62,031 nucleotides of DNA from a virus. The first letter of the stretch is position 1, and each line of letters begins with the position of its first letter. A program made the position numbers and the translations under genes. The stretch is taken from positions 1 to 62,031 of IMG/VR virus record IMGVR_UViG_3300046170_000369; one strand, 5' to 3'. The notes under the pieces were generated by a model that ran no database searches, was not told where the DNA came from, and was given only the letters and a program-made list of their open reading frames with translations. Positions 2,856-15,664 of this stretch are shown in pieces.

Positions 2856-3078
2856 TCCTTCAATTTGCGGGTTAGGTTGGGTTATTATACATACAAACAA
2901 ACAAACAAACACGGGCGTGTCAGTCTATACGGGTTGGGACACGACGCTGTGGAGCGTGTAGGGAGGCTTCACAAGTATTTACTGCCTCGGCAAAGCAATG
3001 CAAGTCCATGCTAGGTGAGGCTAGGCTAGGAATGGTAATATCTTTACCAATTTAAAAATAATATAATACATTAGAACT

Positions 3079-3375
3079 ATGAAACTGACTAAACACTTAA
3101 CTTCTGTGTATCCTAATGATATACAGGAGCCTGATAAGAAGGAATTTGTAGAGCGTGTCACATCTTTGCTGCAGCGCGAAGGTGACAAGTGCTTTAAAGG
3201 GAACCCTCGGCTCGAAGAGGTGTTCCTCTATCGTGTATGCCTGGTACACGGTGGTGACAGCATGCTGTCACTTGAGGACAAAGAACTAAATGAAGTTCTT
3301 AAACAATTTAAATGCCTCATTGAACAAGGAGGCGTACTAATAACTCAGGTAACTGAGTGTAACCCAAATAACTAG
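3079..3375 (+). CDS. Small early protein of unknown function (98 aa)
   Basis: A 98-residue acidic, mostly helical protein with no recognisable motif and no membrane segment. It opens a new run of tightly packed small genes after a long gene-free stretch. A TATAAT-like box lies 12 bases upstream of the ATG and there is no clear ribosome binding site. The next small gene starts seven bases after its stop. Confidence 0.6.
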   Translation: MKLTKHLTSVYPNDIQEPDKKEFVERVTSLLQREGDKCFKGNPRLEEVFLYRVCLVHGGDSMLSLEDKELNEVLKQFKCLIEQGGVLITQVTECNPNN

Positions 3376-3519: not shown

Positions 3520-3765
3520 GAAATAACAATGAAGATATGAAAAAAATAAGTGGGCATGAGGTTGTCTTACGAAATGATTCCCATGAGCATGATGAGAATG
3601 AGTGTTGGATCATTGATTTAAAAAAACGCTCACAACAATGAGTATATTCTTAGTGAGTGCTTTGGTGACAAGTCTGACGCTATTGCTAGGTATGATGAAC
3701 TTGCAACCCATTTAACTAAATACGGGAAACAATCTTTCCTCATGGAGCATGAATGTAGTTATTGA
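3516..3765 (+). CDS. Small early protein, reading frame broken by one extra base
   Basis: The ATG frame gives 41 residues and stops at 3641. In the +1 frame a protein-like stretch (EYILSECFGDKSDAIARYDE and on) runs to 3765. The two join cleanly if the A7 run at 3620-3626 had six As, giving about 83 residues that read smoothly. Start and stop overlap both neighbours in the usual way (ATGA before, 17 bases after). The original gene was therefore probably one. The extra A may be a sequencing error or a real mutation. Function unknown. Confidence 0.5.
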
Positions 3766-4450
3766 AGCAAGCCCTCCTATCACGCCTATGATCATTGGTA
3801 GGCAAATCTCTCCTGCCTCATTGTGGGGCGTGGACAAGGGTCATGAGTACCTAGTACAGCCAAAGCTGAATGGTCAGCATGGTATCTGTGGTGTCATGAA
3901 TGGGGACATCGTGGCTCTTAATAAACATGGTAAGCCTCTTACTAAGTTTATGGAGTGGCGCAACCAACTGAGGTATCGCTTAGATACTCCAGCTTGGAGA
4001 GATACAATTGTTAATGGGGAGCTTGTTAAGCTTCCTAGGTCAGGTATAGGACATGAGTGGTTCTTTCCCTTTGATATACTATTCTATAGGGGCAAGGATG
4101 TTAGGCGCACCGCATTTCATGAACGGCTGAAGATTCTCAGGGACTGGATACAGGATCAAGGTGTATGTAACTACACGCCTAGTGTTGATCCATTTATCGC
4201 TGAGAATACCAGACGAATCATACCAAATATCCCATGGCAGAAACAAATGGGATACTTCAATTCAGATAAACAGGAACAGAACCGAAAGAGTATACTAGAG
4301 GCTCTTGTTCCTGGATGTAAGTATCCATTCAGTGCGTGCTTACTTGATGCTAAGGATGATCGCCTCATTGAGGGCGTAGTTCTCAAGCATAGAGACAGCA
4401 TATACATGGGTGGTAAGAACAAATCATTAATTAAAGCGAGGTGGGAATGA
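3749..4450 (+). CDS. ATP-dependent DNA ligase-like nucleotidyltransferase, adenylation domain only
   Basis: All core motifs of the covalent nucleotidyltransferase family are visible: motif I KLNG with the presumed AMP-accepting Lys39, motif III NGEL (89-92), motif IIIa PFDILFY (107-113), motif IV EGVVLK (208-213) and motif V LIKARW (227-232). The chain ends directly after motif V, so the usual C-terminal OB-fold is missing. It may seal nicks during phage replication with a separate partner, or act as a minimal ligase. An RNA ligase or other adenylating role is possible but the motif order fits DNA ligase best. It overlaps the previous gene by 17 bases and the next by ATGA. Confidence 0.75.
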   Translation: MNVVIEASPPITPMIIGRQISPASLWGVDKGHEYLVQPKLNGQHGICGVMNGDIVALNKHGKPLTKFMEWRNQLRYRLDTPAWRDTIVNGELVKLPRSGIGHEWFFPFDILFYRGKDVRRTAFHERLKILRDWIQDQGVCNYTPSVDPFIAENTRRIIPNIPWQKQMGYFNSDKQEQNRKSILEALVPGCKYPFSACLLDAKDDRLIEGVVLKHRDSIYMGGKNKSLIKARWE

Positions 4451-4871: not shown

Positions 4872-4880
4872 CAATTTTTA

Positions 4881-4956
4881 GGAAGCCTCGGGTGGTTAGC
4901 CCTTGGATGACTCTAAAACAACACCGACACTCGGGTGCGAGGCTTCCTATCACTTT
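4881..4956 (+). promoter_or_regulatory. Hairpin followed by TATCACTTT, copy 2
   Basis: GGAAGCCTCG (4881-4890) pairs perfectly with CGAGGCTTCC (4938-4947), followed by TATCACTTT. Copy 1 at 2769 has a different lower stem but the same arrangement, so pairing rather than sequence is kept. It lies ten bases after the stop of the gene at 4650 and could end or process that transcript. Confidence 0.5.
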
Positions 4957-5093
4957 GTAAATGGCGTGCAACCGACAGGAATTTACGGAGTGGTAAGCAC
5001 GGGAGGGGCGATGCGGTGAATGGACGAGAACGGAAGGGATTGGCGTGTAGCGGAAAGGCGGGGTCGAGAGAGGCCTTGCTTGACAAGCCAATC

Positions 5094-5130
5094 GACTGAC
5101 TGAGCGGTCGTAAAACTACTCAGACTATTT
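5094..5130 (+). ncRNA. H-type pseudoknot element, copy 1
   Basis: Stem 1 is GACTG (5094-5098) with CGGTC (5105-5109), including one T-G pair. One A forms loop 1. Stem 2 is CTGAG (5100-5104) with CTCAG (5119-5123). Loop 3 has nine bases, GTAAAACTA. The element ends with ACTATTT. The same geometry with different stem 2 bases occurs in copies 2 and 3. Confidence 0.6.
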
Positions 5131-5206
5131 AAGGAGGGGACATGCTCGTGCTTGGAACGGAGGTGGCGAGGCTGTGCAATGGACGGACCGGCAAGGAACG
5201 GCAAGG

Positions 5207-5243
5207 GACTGACTAGGCAGTCTATAAATAACCTAGAGTATTT
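5207..5243 (+). ncRNA. H-type pseudoknot element, copy 2
   Basis: Stem 1 is GACTG with CAGTC (5207-5211/5218-5222), one A as loop 1. Stem 2 is CTAGG with CCTAG (5213-5217/5232-5236), with a nine-base A/T-rich loop 3 and a trailing AGTATTT. Stem 2 differs from copies 1 and 3 by compensating changes. Confidence 0.6.
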
Positions 5244-5310
5244 CAGGGGCGAGGCCTGCAATGGCGAGGACACGCATGGCTTTGGCGATGTCTGGCGAGG
5301 CGAGGCATGG

Positions 5311-5347
5311 GACTGACAGGGCAGTCGTTAAGTAACCCTGAGTATTT
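5311..5347 (+). ncRNA. H-type pseudoknot element, copy 3
   Basis: Stem 1 is GACTG with CAGTC (5311-5315/5322-5326), one A as loop 1. Stem 2 is CAGGG with CCCTG (5317-5321/5336-5340), nine-base loop 3 and trailing AGTATTT. It lies 107 bases upstream of the next gene. Confidence 0.6.
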
Positions 5348-5453
5348 CAATGCTTGGATCTGCGATGTCGGGTCAGGCATGGAAGGGAAAAGACTGGAGT
5401 GGAAGGGCAAGGAAAGTTCCACATCCAATTAACAAACATAAACAATAATATAT

Positions 5454-6038
5454 ATGAAAAAAATAAGTATAGATGTAGAAGGGATTACTCCCATGTTATT
5501 ACACAATGGTCAGACTGCTGACCCACTGAATGAGTTCAGTAAAGAACTCAAGAAAGTATCAGGGAAACGCAACAAGACCGATGAAGATCACGCCCTTATG
5601 GGGGATATAGAGTGGCGAGCAGGTCTGTATTGGGACGACAAGCTTGGTGTATTCATGCCTGCCGAGAACCTACAGGCTATGTTATTGGCTGCCGCTAAGA
5701 AAACGAAGCAAGGTGCTCAATCCATACACATCCTTGTGGATGATGATATGGCAATCAAGTTCAAGAACTCCACTAAGTTCGATAAGCTTGAGAAAGACCC
5801 TGATATGAGGGACAGGAGAATCTGTCGAGTAGGTACTGCAAAGATAGCACGGACTCGTCCTAAGATTCCAGTGGGCTGGTCAGGCACTATTAATCTACTG
5901 ATCGATGTGGATGGTATCGATGAGGATGATGTCATCAAGTTTGCGGAGACTGCCGGGAAAATTATCGGCATGGGTGACTGGCGTCCTGAGAAGCGTGGGC
6001 GTTTCGGTAAGTTTGTAGTAACTAATGTCGTCAAGTGA
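5454..6038 (+). CDS. Conserved phage protein of unknown function (194 aa)
   Basis: The sequence matches a type of hypothetical protein I recall from many phages: an N-terminal strand ending in ITPMLLHNGQ, then DPLNEF, KRNKTDEDH, a mid-region MPAENLQAML and a C-terminal MGDWRP...GRFGKFVV. The Gly-rich GRFG end resembles the glycine-rich loop of RAMP/Cas7-like folds, but that is a loose impression. It is the first gene after the pseudoknot array and shares a four-base overlap with the next gene, which starts with GTG. Confidence 0.7.
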   Translation: MKKISIDVEGITPMLLHNGQTADPLNEFSKELKKVSGKRNKTDEDHALMGDIEWRAGLYWDDKLGVFMPAENLQAMLLAAAKKTKQGAQSIHILVDDDMAIKFKNSTKFDKLEKDPDMRDRRICRVGTAKIARTRPKIPVGWSGTINLLIDVDGIDEDDVIKFAETAGKIIGMGDWRPEKRGRFGKFVVTNVVK

Positions 6039-6532
6039 GTAGGTCTACATTACTACCAACTCGTAAGCATCCTGTGGAGAGGCATGTCTTTGAACAGCTT
6101 GAGGATGCAATTGACTATGGTGAGGTCATTAAGTGGCACATCATTGAGGAGATTGCTGATATGCCTAGGCTAGTACATGGCATTGTTGATCCTAAGTTTG
6201 CATTCATGTGGATGCAGGTGTCTCAGATGTTAGAGGGTAGAGGCTTCTTTACTACTGAACGAGGGATGAATGGTGAGGGCTTTAGGGTGTTGCAACGCGA
6301 AGAAGTAGCCTCCCATAACGATAAGAAGGTCAAGCAGGACATCAAGCAATGGGAACGCAGAGTTGTTGGTATGTCCTGCGTGTCTCGTGATGGCATGAGT
6401 CATGACGAGCAACGCAAGCTTGATCATATACAAAACAAAGTGGTCATGATGGCTGAGGTGAACAAACACCTGATGAGGAAGCGTAACCTTCCTATGCCAG
6501 GAAAAGCATTGGAGGCTGTTAAGTCATTATGA
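6035..6532 (+). CDS. Early protein of unknown function (165 aa)
   Basis: The GTG start overlaps the previous stop (GTGA) and its TGA overlaps the following ATG. It is a soluble, largely helical protein with a basic C-terminal third. No family recognised. Tight coupling to the upstream conserved phage protein suggests that the two act together. Confidence 0.65.
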   Translation: MSRSTLLPTRKHPVERHVFEQLEDAIDYGEVIKWHIIEEIADMPRLVHGIVDPKFAFMWMQVSQMLEGRGFFTTERGMNGEGFRVLQREEVASHNDKKVKQDIKQWERRVVGMSCVSRDGMSHDEQRKLDHIQNKVVMMAEVNKHLMRKRNLPMPGKALEAVKSL

Positions 6533-11024: not shown

Positions 11025-11690
11025 ATGTTAGATCAAATAGAAGAGCAGGTAAATAAAACTGCTAAACAGAAACTAAACGCATACAGGGATAATCTAAATA
11101 AAGAATTCCGAAATATTACGCCTTGGCGCAAGGAATATCGTCAAGTCATTGGTAATATGGGTGGGGAAGATAATATATTCGAGTGGACAGTAGAAACATT
11201 CTTTCTTGTCTACGACAATGTAGATGCGAAGGGGTCTGATGCCATGCGTGGAGATGAGTATGAGATGGCAGAAGCGTGGGGTGCATGGAGATTCTTATAC
11301 CATCTACTCTCTGCTTTCATTGAGGGATTACCCGAAGATGCAGAATATCAGCGGTACACCTTTAAGCGTATGCCAGTTGGGCAGGCACTGATAAATGTGA
11401 TACTTCTCTCTACTCACAGAGCATACGGAGCGTACAAAAGTAAAGAATCCTTAATGGGCGATAAAAAGTACGAATATAAGGACTCTGGCTTTAGAGATTC
11501 ACCAATTACATTTCTTCTAGCTAGAGGTGACCAAGCTGGCTCAGGCTGTTCACTGCTTGGTCAAGGTTACCTCGAAGAGGATCTACTTCATCTATTCAAA
11601 GACAGAACGATCAAGGACATGATCCGTGGTGTTCCCTCTGGAAAAGAAGAGTCAGTCACCATAACTGGTAACGGCTTACAAGTACAATGA
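11025..11690 (+). CDS. Early protein of unknown function (221 aa)
   Basis: A soluble, mostly helical protein with an aromatic core (WGAWRFLYHLLSAF) and a charged N-terminal helix. No motif recognised. The start is one base after the previous stop, preceded by a GGAGG site, and the end overlaps the next ATG. Its place between the clamp-loader-like ATPase and the helicase suggests DNA metabolism. Confidence 0.6.
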   Translation: MLDQIEEQVNKTAKQKLNAYRDNLNKEFRNITPWRKEYRQVIGNMGGEDNIFEWTVETFFLVYDNVDAKGSDAMRGDEYEMAEAWGAWRFLYHLLSAFIEGLPEDAEYQRYTFKRMPVGQALINVILLSTHRAYGAYKSKESLMGDKKYEYKDSGFRDSPITFLLARGDQAGSGCSLLGQGYLEEDLLHLFKDRTIKDMIRGVPSGKEESVTITGNGLQVQ

Positions 11691-12101: not shown

Positions 12102-14592
12102 ATTACATGCAGTAAAACCGCACCTTGTATTGTCCCCCAATGGTGCGTTCAGGGTGGATCGAACAACTAATTATCAGTTGGTCAATGCACTACTAAATTA
12201 TGTCAGAGGCAAGAAGCCGATGACACTGACATACGGGACAGACAGAACAGCACTAATGCGACTAATGGAGCAACATGACAAAGGTCGCCTTTATGTTAGT
12301 TTGGAATGTAAGCGTGAGATACATAAAGCCTTACAGTCATCCAAGCAGGATGTGCCTGTTATTCTTCCGCCAACAGATTACGAGCGGTTCGGACATATCA
12401 AAGACCACTCTAACCTGACGGCTCTGGAGACAATGGATGTGCGTGAGCATCCAAAGATGAAAGCACTGCTAAACAAAAAGCCTGCCCAAAAGCTACCAAT
12501 ACTTATAGCTGGTGAGAACTATACAGCCCGTTACCAAAGCGTGGAGTTTAGATCAAGGTACAAGAAGCCAAGGCTTAAGCTAGAGAATGGTGAGACTGTG
12601 GTGGTAAATAATGAGTATGAACTACGAGGGAATGATCATTCGATTATCATTCGTGATGAGCAGGGTCATGTGTTCAGGTTCAGGGACAATGCCCTTGGTG
12701 ATCGTGAGTTACCCTGCGAGATGATCTGGCTATTCTTCCAGGAGGTTGAGGTAAAGACGGTCAAGGATGCAAACCCTGAAGAGTATGCCAAGACGCTACA
12801 GATGATTGATGAGCTTGGATTCCTGAATGGATTCAAGTGTTATCCTGGACAAGTGGACTACATCACATCCCTCGGGATGACCGACTATGCATTGGTTGCA
12901 GCAGAGACAGGCACGGGTAAATCATTCATTGCTATTGTGCTTGACCTACTAAAGAACAATAAGCGTACACTACTGATTGCACCGAAAGGTACGATCAAGG
13001 ATGGTGAGTTGAATGGTGCATCCCTTGCATCTCAATGGATGAAGGAGTTCAAGCAGTTCTCCCCGACCCGCAAGGTGTTCAAGCTATTCTCTAAGAAGGA
13101 CTATCAGAAGATAATCCAAGAACATGGTGAGCTTCCAGCAGGTGTGTACTTTACTTACCATACTGTTTTCTTCCGTGGCTTTGAGCATATCCCTGCATCG
13201 TGGCAGGTGAATGAACACAATGCTAGGTTTAAGAAATGGTTGCGTAAGACTTATAACATCGAGTGCGAGGAAGGTGTGGCATATGGGATTGGTGAGACAC
13301 GCAATGGTATCACCTGTATTGCTCAGCCAAATCTTTCTACCAAGGTGGGTAAGGCATTCGACATGGTCATCTTGGATGAGGCACATCTTATCTGTAATCC
13401 CAAGTCGGGAGTCACTCGCAGTATGCTAAGGCTACAGCCTAAGTACAAATTCTGCCTGACAGCCACACCTATCCCTAATGCTGTACGCAATCTATTCCCG
13501 CTGATGGGGTGGCTTGCTGTACCTAATTGGTATCAGGGTGATGTATCCAACTCTCGGTGGCCTTACACTCTTAATGATGAGAACAGGTTTGTTAATGAGT
13601 TTCAGTCTAAAGAGTATGATATTACTGCTCGCCTGAATGGTGAGTACAAAGCCCCCAAGAACAGTCCTATACTCAGCAACAAGCAAAAGCTACTGCGTAT
13701 GGTCAAGACAATCATTGCATTCATTACCAAGGAACAATGCAATCCTGATCTTGTTGACTGCAATGTGGAGACTATCCGTGTTCCCTTCGGTAAGTATCAG
13801 AAGCAATTGTACTCATGGAATATGGACTTGGGCAATATACCGCACGAAGACCACAGGACTAAGCATGGTGTGCAGATGATGCGACTCCGTGGTATTTGCT
13901 CTGACCCTGAGGGTCGTGAGTTCAATAAGTTTCCTGGTTTCAAGATGGTCGAAAGCAATATGAACCCCAAGGTAATTGCTATCCTATCTAAGATTGCCAA
14001 GTGTATACAGGAAGGTGAGCAGGTCGTTCATGTCTCTGCTTTCACAGGTCTGAATGATGAATTGGAGAAGCGGTTACAGGAGGCAGGCGTGAAGGTCGCT
14101 AGGATTGATGGTACGCCAGGATTGGATCAGGCTGCTCAGGCTGCAATATTCAAGGAGAAGAAAGCTCAGGTTATGCTCATGGGTATCAAGTGTGCTGCTG
14201 GTCACTCGTTTGATCAGTGTAAGGAGTTGATCATTGGTGGTCTTGAATGGAGCTATGGTTCACTCAATCAGGCATTGGGTAGAGTATTCAGATTGAACTC
14301 ACCTAAAGATGTGAACGCTTATATTGTACTTACAGAGAGTAGCATTGAGGAGATGATGTTTGATCGCTTGGCACAGAAGAGGGATTCTGCCACTATTATC
14401 TTGCACGGCGAACCGATACCTCATGACTATCAAGATACTAGCGTGCAGGAGATATTTGCGGATCACTTCCTATCATACTCGCGTGGTGACGATAACACGA
14501 TGAACGAGGTGGAATGCGAACAGGATTGGGTAGCACTACAAATGGAACTACAACCAAGGAAGGAAGAGTTTGATCCAATTTTAATTGACTAA
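12094..14592 (+). CDS. SNF2-type superfamily 2 helicase/ATPase (832 aa)
   Basis: Helicase motifs are clear: Q-like YPGQVDYI, Walker A AETGTGKS (about 270-277), motif II ILDEAH (about 424-429), motif III LTATPIPN (about 453-460), and in the second RecA-like domain GIKCAAGHSFDQCKELI and LNQALGRVFRL with the arginine finger region (about 695-735). The first 240 residues are an extra N-terminal domain. Such enzymes unwind or remodel DNA; in podoviruses they commonly accompany replication genes. An alternative role is strand annealing. It is the largest early gene and runs directly into the integrase. Confidence 0.85.
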   Translation: MPELHAVKPHLVLSPNGAFRVDRTTNYQLVNALLNYVRGKKPMTLTYGTDRTALMRLMEQHDKGRLYVSLECKREIHKALQSSKQDVPVILPPTDYERFGHIKDHSNLTALETMDVREHPKMKALLNKKPAQKLPILIAGENYTARYQSVEFRSRYKKPRLKLENGETVVVNNEYELRGNDHSIIIRDEQGHVFRFRDNALGDRELPCEMIWLFFQEVEVKTVKDANPEEYAKTLQMIDELGFLNGFKCYPGQVDYITSLGMTDYALVAAETGTGKSFIAIVLDLLKNNKRTLLIAPKGTIKDGELNGASLASQWMKEFKQFSPTRKVFKLFSKKDYQKIIQEHGELPAGVYFTYHTVFFRGFEHIPASWQVNEHNARFKKWLRKTYNIECEEGVAYGIGETRNGITCIAQPNLSTKVGKAFDMVILDEAHLICNPKSGVTRSMLRLQPKYKFCLTATPIPNAVRNLFPLMGWLAVPNWYQGDVSNSRWPYTLNDENRFVNEFQSKEYDITARLNGEYKAPKNSPILSNKQKLLRMVKTIIAFITKEQCNPDLVDCNVETIRVPFGKYQKQLYSWNMDLGNIPHEDHRTKHGVQMMRLRGICSDPEGREFNKFPGFKMVESNMNPKVIAILSKIAKCIQEGEQVVHVSAFTGLNDELEKRLQEAGVKVARIDGTPGLDQAAQAAIFKEKKAQVMLMGIKCAAGHSFDQCKELIIGGLEWSYGSLNQALGRVFRLNSPKDVNAYIVLTESSIEEMMFDRLAQKRDSATIILHGEPIPHDYQDTSVQEIFADHFLSYSRGDDNTMNEVECEQDWVALQMELQPRKEEFDPILID

Positions 14593-14593
14593 G

Positions 14594-14603
14594 TGTTACC
14601 TAA
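14594..14603 (+). promoter_or_regulatory. TGTTACCTAA half-site before the integrase
   Basis: Identical to the arms of the 44-69 palindrome. It lies 20 bases upstream of the preferred integrase start, so a protein bound here could control integrase translation or transcription. Only one half is present. Confidence 0.3.
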
Positions 14604-14623
14604 AGATATTAAAGGTATTTAGA

Positions 14624-15664
14624 GTGAAGTTAGTTAAAAACAAGAGTGGTCAGTATTCAGTAAAATACACAGGTCAGGACGGAAAAGAAAAGTCCACGGC
14701 TCTAGGTGTAACCCAACTAAGTGAAGCTAAGTCTATTGTATCTGAGCTAAAGATTGCAGAGATGGAGAAGGCTGCCAAGCTTCAACTGCTCTCACAGGAA
14801 GTTGTCGCTAAGCTTACTGGTGCATCAAATCATAACTTCATTGATGTCTTACGTGAATACAAACAACATAGACAACGGGTAGCAAGCTCGCCCAACACGA
14901 TCAATACGATCATGGCAATATACTATCAGTTCTCCAGAGACTATAAGTATGATAAAAGATCAATCTCTGAGGTATCTGAGAAAGACCTACATGATTTCAT
15001 TAATCGTAATGATGGTACATCTCTTAGTAATAAAAGACTGCGACTTACTTCTCTAAGCAGTCTATTTAAATACGCTGTAGCAAAAGGCTACATGCAAATA
15101 AACCCAAGTTCTCTAGTGAAGGTAGACATGGGTAAGATGACTCATGAGCAAAAGGAAGTAGAAAAGAGAAGACCTTTCACTCAATGGGAATACGAACAGG
15201 TAGTAAACCATGCACCCTACTTTTTCAAACAAGCCACCATTCTATCCTACTGGACAGGACTGCGATTGGGTGACTGCTGTAGTTTAGAGTGGGCATCCAT
15301 TACAGATAAACACATAACTGTATGGACAACCAAGAGAGATAAGCGTGTACGAATACCGCTAGGTCACAAGCTATTTGGTGGGCAGAAAGTTATACAAGCA
15401 ATCAAGAGCATAGAAAAGGAAGACGATGTGTATTGCTTCCCTCAGTGGCAAAAGGTTCAGTCAAATAGTAAGACGCGATCCAAGACTAGCGTGTACTTTA
15501 ATCGTATACTCAAAAGACTTTTTATTGAGGGTAAATCATTTCATTGCCTTAGACATAGCTTTACCACTCGCCTGTACAAGGCAGGTATAATGCTAGAGGA
15601 TATTGGCAAGGTGGTTGGTCATTCAAGTACCAAGACCACAGAAGGCTACATACATAAGAAGTAA
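14624..15664 (+). CDS. int: Tyrosine recombinase / phage integrase (346 aa)
   Basis: The catalytic set is present: Arg in YWTGLRLGDCC (about 215), a Lys in TTKRDKRV, HCLRH (about 306-310), the H of VGHSS and the nucleophile Tyr in EGYIHKK four residues from the end. The N-terminus (VKNKSGQYSVKYTGQDGK) is an arm-binding-like beta domain followed by a core-binding helical domain. GTG 14624, with AAAGG eight bases upstream, is preferred; a TTG at 14585 would overlap the helicase. It lies far from the attachment site at the right edge, where a second recombinase starts, so which enzyme uses that site is open. Confidence 0.85.
   Translation: MKLVKNKSGQYSVKYTGQDGKEKSTALGVTQLSEAKSIVSELKIAEMEKAAKLQLLSQEVVAKLTGASNHNFIDVLREYKQHRQRVASSPNTINTIMAIYYQFSRDYKYDKRSISEVSEKDLHDFINRNDGTSLSNKRLRLTSLSSLFKYAVAKGYMQINPSSLVKVDMGKMTHEQKEVEKRRPFTQWEYEQVVNHAPYFFKQATILSYWTGLRLGDCCSLEWASITDKHITVWTTKRDKRVRIPLGHKLFGGQKVIQAIKSIEKEDDVYCFPQWQKVQSNSKTRSKTSVYFNRILKRLFIEGKSFHCLRHSFTTRLYKAGIMLEDIGKVVGHSSTKTTEGYIHKK

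Follow-up and report, generated by a model that had tools for sequence, protein, structure and literature searches.

The three pseudoknots at positions 5094, 5207 and 5311 of the window, the 62,031-nt stretch of IMGVR_UViG_3300046170_000369, very probably (probability about 0.93) form the 3' tails of three guide RNAs, or vrRNAs, that belong to a VIPR system encoded by the phage. VIPR, short for Viral Interference Programmable Repeat, is a CRISPR-like, phage-encoded system that silences competing phages, as described in the main text of the preprint (PMC13142463, bioRxiv 2026.04.26.720920). According to that text, the system comprises vipr, vap and vrRNAs, each vrRNA being a GGY/NN repeat tract followed by a 3' tail, and it is through the NN dinucleotides, with a 1-nt skip, that double-stranded DNA is read (PMC13142463). 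The same text gives tracts of 9–16 pentamer repeats, a vipr RAMP of about 20 kDa, vrRNA transcripts of about 100 nt and natural targets with the skips at wobble bases, mentions "a related consensus" besides GGY/NN, and proposes VIPR as the ancestor of CRISPR RAMP systems. The vrRNA tail of the SUSP1 clade includes a pseudoknot; in the main text the tail structure comes from folding analysis only, the tail is called invariable and its function is not established (PMC13142463). Pseudoknot tails on pentamer tracts, together with a RAMP gene and a vap1 gene, lead to the assignment of the array to the VIPR vrRNA architecture. The first-pass annotation had recognized no described RNA class in this arrangement, which is borne out by Rfam, where it has no family, but not by the literature, since the VIPR vrRNA is described in the main text of the 2026 preprint (PMC13142463).

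The three elements lie on the plus strand at 5094–5130 (vrRNA 1 tail), 5207–5243 (vrRNA 2 tail) and 5311–5347 (vrRNA 3 tail), and share the geometry of an H-type pseudoknot with a 5-bp stem 1 (S1), a 1-nt loop 1 (L1), a 5-bp stem 2 (S2) and a 9-nt loop 3 (L3). The copy at 5094 reads GACTG-A-CTGAG-CGGTC-GTAAAACTA-CTCAG-ACTATTT, the copy at 5207 reads GACTG-A-CTAGG-CAGTC-TATAAATAA-CCTAG-AGTATTT and the copy at 5311 reads GACTG-A-CAGGG-CAGTC-GTTAAGTAA-CCCTG-AGTATTT, with S2 strands CTGAG/CTCAG, CTAGG/CCTAG and CAGGG/CCCTG, respectively; their positions, stems and loops were all found as first annotated. An exhaustive geometry scan (S1 5, L1 1, S2 5, L2 0, L3 9, with at most one G-U per stem) gave three matches in the 503-nt stretch compared with 0.007 per dinucleotide shuffle. 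The rest of the 62-kb plus strand contains two further matches to this geometry, both in unrelated sequence. Energy folding, which is uninformative for pseudoknots, returned nested predictions without a pseudoknot for the single copies (z-scores of −1.5 to 0.4). Rfam gave no match at the gathering score, and relaxing the threshold to E ≤ 5 added nothing beyond one match at chance level (E 4.3); neither a tRNA reading of the pseudoknot stretch nor BLASTN of the stretch against known phages gave a match.

When 2.9 million viral contigs were scanned for the pseudoknot pattern, one true relative emerged, the near-identical phage contig IMGVR_UViG_3300048446_000527 (L005/L009). Four other pattern-matching contigs (L004, L006–L008) lack the stem-2 pairing and were discarded as chance matches. 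Of the four pseudoknots in the relative, copies 1 and 2 match their window counterparts exactly, copy 3 has S2 CTGGG/TCCAG where the window has CAGGG/CCCTG, and an extra copy has S2 AGGGG/CCCCT. The two latter copies provide the further compensated examples in a related phage, although in the extra copy L1 is a T, and the description of loop 1 as an A is therefore correct for the three window copies and not for every copy in the relative. Across the five distinct copies of the two contigs 100% of cells pair and four of the five stem-2 pairs are changed on both sides; slid controls pair in only 22–42%, and all controls fail. The covariation reported earlier is confirmed for stem 2, which is the sole covarying helix, but the change in stem 1 is limited to one U-A/U-G. 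With every pair kept and stem 2 changed in this way, sequence comparison supports the three pseudoknots as a real, selected, covarying fold, as the first-pass annotation had proposed.

The stretch containing the pseudoknots had been described as gene-free and indeed holds no gene, but that description overlooked its most prominent trait, a G-rich track (GGNNN) with a strict 5-nt period that is punctuated by the pseudoknots. The stretch is G-rich with a strong strand asymmetry, and GG dinucleotides spaced 5, 10, 15 and 20 nt apart form 25, 23, 23 and 18 pairs, respectively, compared with about 9 expected. The parsed repeat units have the consensus K-G-H-N-N, with G or T at position 1 and C, A or T at position 3. 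The 5-nt-periodic tract of KGHNN units upstream of tail 1 (4981–5093, plus strand), the putative guide of vrRNA 1, is longer and more degenerate than the other tracts and exceeds a single published guide; it may hold more than one. Periodicity and unit parsing place the guide tract of vrRNA 2, of about 10–14 pentamer units, at 5131–5206 and that of vrRNA 3 at 5244–5310, both on the plus strand. Guide 3 includes one 6-nt unit and has the NN code GA CT AT GA CA AT TT GA CT GA GA AT. Tract and tail together measure 113 nt for vrRNA 2 and 104 nt for vrRNA 3. A fourth pentamer tract, of about 13 units and without a pseudoknot tail, was delimited by unit parsing and folding directly before the vipr leader (5348–5413, plus strand) and is putatively an orphan guide, a leader or control element of vipr, or a guide with another tail, the hairpin TGGAA..TTCCA. 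A sigma-70 promoter scan of the array found none. Just upstream of the array, at 4879–4949, lies a branched, cloverleaf-like RNA structure (z = −4.1) with a 12-bp closing stem around three short hairpins, which is nearly identical in the relative and has no Rfam match.

The gene following the array (vipr, 5454–6038, plus strand, phrog_4652) encodes a 194-aa protein with no Pfam and no confident NCBIfam assignment. Its AF2 structure (pLDDT 91.4) has Csm3-type CRISPR RAMP subunits as all of its top PDB matches in Foldseek (E 5.9e-7, probability 1.00), and the prediction of the product as a CRISPR-type RAMP, with Csm3 as the best match, is confident. A vipr family profile detects this protein and homologs in all loci, including the SUSP1-clade locus L086. 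Overlapping the vipr stop codon is a gene for a 165-aa vap1-type accessory protein (6035–6532, plus strand), which a vap1 profile built without the window or its relative detects at E 1.5e-5 and which shares a family with the vap gene of the SUSP1 clade. In 84 of 118 loci a member of the vap1 family adjoins the homolog. Profile searches of the genes examined detected neither cas1/cas2 nor any other cas gene. The roles initially suggested for the pseudoknots, namely ligand sensing, generic protein binding or titration before a gene, were not upheld, as the pseudoknots end pentamer tracts beside RAMP and vap1 genes. Elsewhere in the window, an integrase gene is located at 14585–15664, which suggests a temperate phage; PHROG matches are weak or absent for several large proteins of the minus strand, and a terminase comparison for host inference gave distant matches only.

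Between the window and its relative, identity is 99.8% in the upstream flank and 100% in tails 1 and 2, whereas tract 2 is only 53% identical and has been replaced, and tract 1 is 76% identical with 67 gap columns, its 5' half having been replaced. The relative has one whole extra vrRNA unit. Tract 3 is identical in the two phages, and tail 3 has six differences, which fall in loop 3, in the trailing sequence and in stem pairs where the changes are compensated. The replacement of guide tracts with the tails kept is as predicted for replaceable guides with a fixed handle.

Targets were searched by scanning viral contigs with five guides for exact half-guide (eight-NN) stretches under the published 1-nt-skip rule. 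Guide 3 gave 49 matches with a mean extension score of 2.5/8 on the remaining positions, from which we estimate that about 0.005 full matches would be expected by chance. One of the 49, in IMGVR_UViG_3300049740_002562 (L230), also fits all eight remaining positions, giving 24/24 NN positions at L230:3840-3874 within these exact half-guide scans. The site, GATCTTATTGATCATATCTTAGAGCTTGAAGAAATC, lies in frame within a 158-aa Holliday-junction-resolvase gene (codons GAT CTT ATT GAT CAT ATC TTA GAG CTT GAA GAA ATC), and the skipped bases are all wobble bases. The contig, from a temperate phage, also carries integrase and replication genes. Judged by this match, the site is the predicted target of guide 3. 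Guides 1 and 2, the last tract and guide 2 of the relative gave chance-level extensions only in the exact half-guide scans of viral contigs. Within the window, guide 3 fits 19/24 positions at 11326 of the reverse complement, which is within chance after multiple testing and gives no indication of self-targeting.

Of 141 homolog loci, 91% have the GG track, defined as 8 or more of 12 GG in register, on the same strand as the gene and 3% have it on the opposite strand; periods other than 5 give 0–7%. A distant homolog (L010, 44% identity) has a tract of the same kind directly after the gene, and tracts likewise occur in Felixounavirus wV8, Pseudomonas phage LESphi2, the Gordonia phages MakoManhole and Trine, Mycobacterium phage LittleE, and Azospirillum and Bradyrhizobium plasmids. 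A vipr fragment with a perfect 12/12 GG pentamer track is also present in a Diapherotrites archaeal MAG contig (L148:4001-4417). Tract-tail units in other phages are found both upstream and downstream of the gene. The SUSP1-clade tails (L086, L014 from wV8 and L017 from Moogle) are pseudoknots laid out as in the window and have a constant 5-bp S1, a 1-nt L1, an L2 of 0, a variable 7-bp S2 and an A-rich L3, as in GTAGT-T-AGTCTCA-GCTAC-ATTAAAA-TGAGACT, and one Moogle copy has stem 2 AATCGGA/TCCGATT. Pseudoknots with an A/T-rich L3 were located at most 60 nt downstream of 19 of the 338 tracks and upstream of 5, compared with 0 for shuffled tails. The repeats deposited for wV8 as "DR_4" (L014:2259-2316, 3652-3709) overlap vrRNA tails of the wV8 VIPR locus.

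A different kind of tail was observed in 32 of the 141 VIPR loci, several of them actinobacterial, which together contain 61 tRNA-like minihelices on the gene's strand and 0 on the opposite strand. These are made up of a 5–7-bp acceptor stem, a 10–11-nt linker containing GG and a T-arm with a TTCRA loop, have no anticodon arm and adjoin the GGNNN tracts where a pseudoknot would stand. Examples are L012:1650-1691, 2983-3024 and 3101-3142, L015:2249-2291, 2385-2425, 3705-3747 and 3849-3890, and L016:3078-3119, 3199-3240 and 3308-3349, with the remainder in 29 further loci. Both helices covary strongly, but the copies had been selected by pairing. The minihelices are possibly RNase P / RNase Z processing sites.

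The present analysis provides the anatomy of the array, the covariation, the predicted RAMP fold, the co-occurrence, the guide turnover and one predicted target, whereas vrRNA expression, RNP formation, 1-nt-skip DNA binding and repression are carried over by homology from the main text of the preprint (PMC13142463). On this basis the vipr product, a small RAMP, would coat the tract, each repeat taking up a single subunit. The protein would hold the invariant GG positions, leaving the NN dinucleotides to read double-stranded DNA with one base skipped per repeat, and with the help of vap1 the complex would bind genes of competing phages and silence them. Much like a crRNA handle, the tail would form a cap that protects the 3' end of the RNA and sets the register or the start of the Vipr filament, and diversification of stem 2 between neighboring units perhaps limits pairing or recombination among tails. 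Where a tRNA-like minihelix stands instead of the pseudoknot, the array could be cleaved into guides by host RNase P / RNase Z. We tentatively suggest that the tail is a modular, exchangeable device as opposed to an invariable handle, with at least two tail mechanisms maturing VIPR guides.

The pseudoknots, with their 1-nt loop 1, precede a nucleic-acid-binding gene whose leader is A-rich, an arrangement that also resembles autoregulation as for T4 gene 32, where the downstream protein would bind the leader pseudoknots, spread over the A-rich ribosome-binding region and block its own translation. This is unlikely, because the downstream gene is predicted to encode a RAMP instead of an SSB, because other phages have tract-tail units on both sides of the gene, and because the GG period and the guide turnover would be left unexplained. 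Tandem pseudoknots with an A-rich loop 3 preceding a gene could in principle be ligand-sensing aptamers of the preQ1 or SAM-II type, but the Rfam searches described above give no meaningful match, stem 2 varies freely, no sequence of a ligand pocket is conserved, and homologous loci retain the track and the protein with other tails, including tRNA-like ones, which makes a riboswitch extremely unlikely.

If the locus were a CRISPR array, or a set of solitary CRISPR repeats from a minimal or anti-CRISPR system, the pseudoknots would be 37-nt repeats and the tracts spacers, in keeping with the RAMP-type protein beside them and the 67–76 nt of turning-over sequence that separate them. The spacers are, however, strictly 5-nt periodic, the repeats diverge in stem 2, the genes examined include no cas1/cas2 or other cas genes, and the gapped 24/24 match of guide 3 speaks against contiguous spacers; this explanation is very unlikely, and VIPR fits better on every point. 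Read as VIPR, the array supplies compensatory evidence for the tail pseudoknot both within an array and between phages, an example from nature of guides being exchanged between near-identical phages while the tails are kept, and one predicted natural target. The wider locus set indicates tails of at least two unrelated structural kinds. The compensated tail variation within an array, the looser consensus and the tRNA-like tails are absent from the main text of the preprint, as is the word tRNA, and may be covered in its supplement (PMC13142463).

The T4/T2 gene 32 translational-repression pseudoknot is H-type with a 1-nt loop 1 and lies upstream of a nucleic-acid-binding gene. The window shares these features, but differs in its repeated units with guide tracts, in having a predicted RAMP in place of an SSB and in that homologous units also occur downstream of the gene. 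With the class 1 CRISPR-Cas effectors (Csm3/Cas7) the system has in common the RAMP fold, matched with a Foldseek probability of 1.00, and the organization into repeat handle and variable guide, whereas no CRISPR array or adaptation genes were seen, the code is non-contiguous, the register is 5 nt as opposed to 6 nt, and sequence identity is only about 8–16%. Differences from the VIPR SUSP1 / type II clade are also apparent. The K-G-H-N-N consensus is looser than the strict GGY/NN of VIPR, which counts against the assignment, and is taken here as a case of the related consensus mentioned in the preprint. Also counting against the assignment are the 6-nt unit in guide 3, the length of tract 1, the last tract with its missing pseudoknot tail, and guides 1 and 2 and the last tract yielding no convincing target in the exact half-guide scans. 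Tail stem 2 differs, fully compensated, among units of one array, compared with the invariable tail of the preprint's main text (PMC13142463). S2 is 5 bp and L3 9 nt compared with 7 and 7 in the SUSP1 clade, the window vipr is only about 33–35% identical to Felixounavirus homologs, and all units lie upstream of vipr with one tract lacking a pseudoknot. Common to both are the phage-borne small RAMP (vipr) with a vap1-family gene, the intergenic GG/NN pentamer tracts on the gene's strand, the H-type pseudoknot in the 3' tail, the units of about 100 nt in arrays, where the 104 and 113 nt of tract plus tail for vrRNA 3 and 2 agree with the transcripts of about 100 nt (PMC13142463), and, as a prediction for guide 3, a target in another phage that fits perfectly under the 1-nt skip with the skips at wobble bases.
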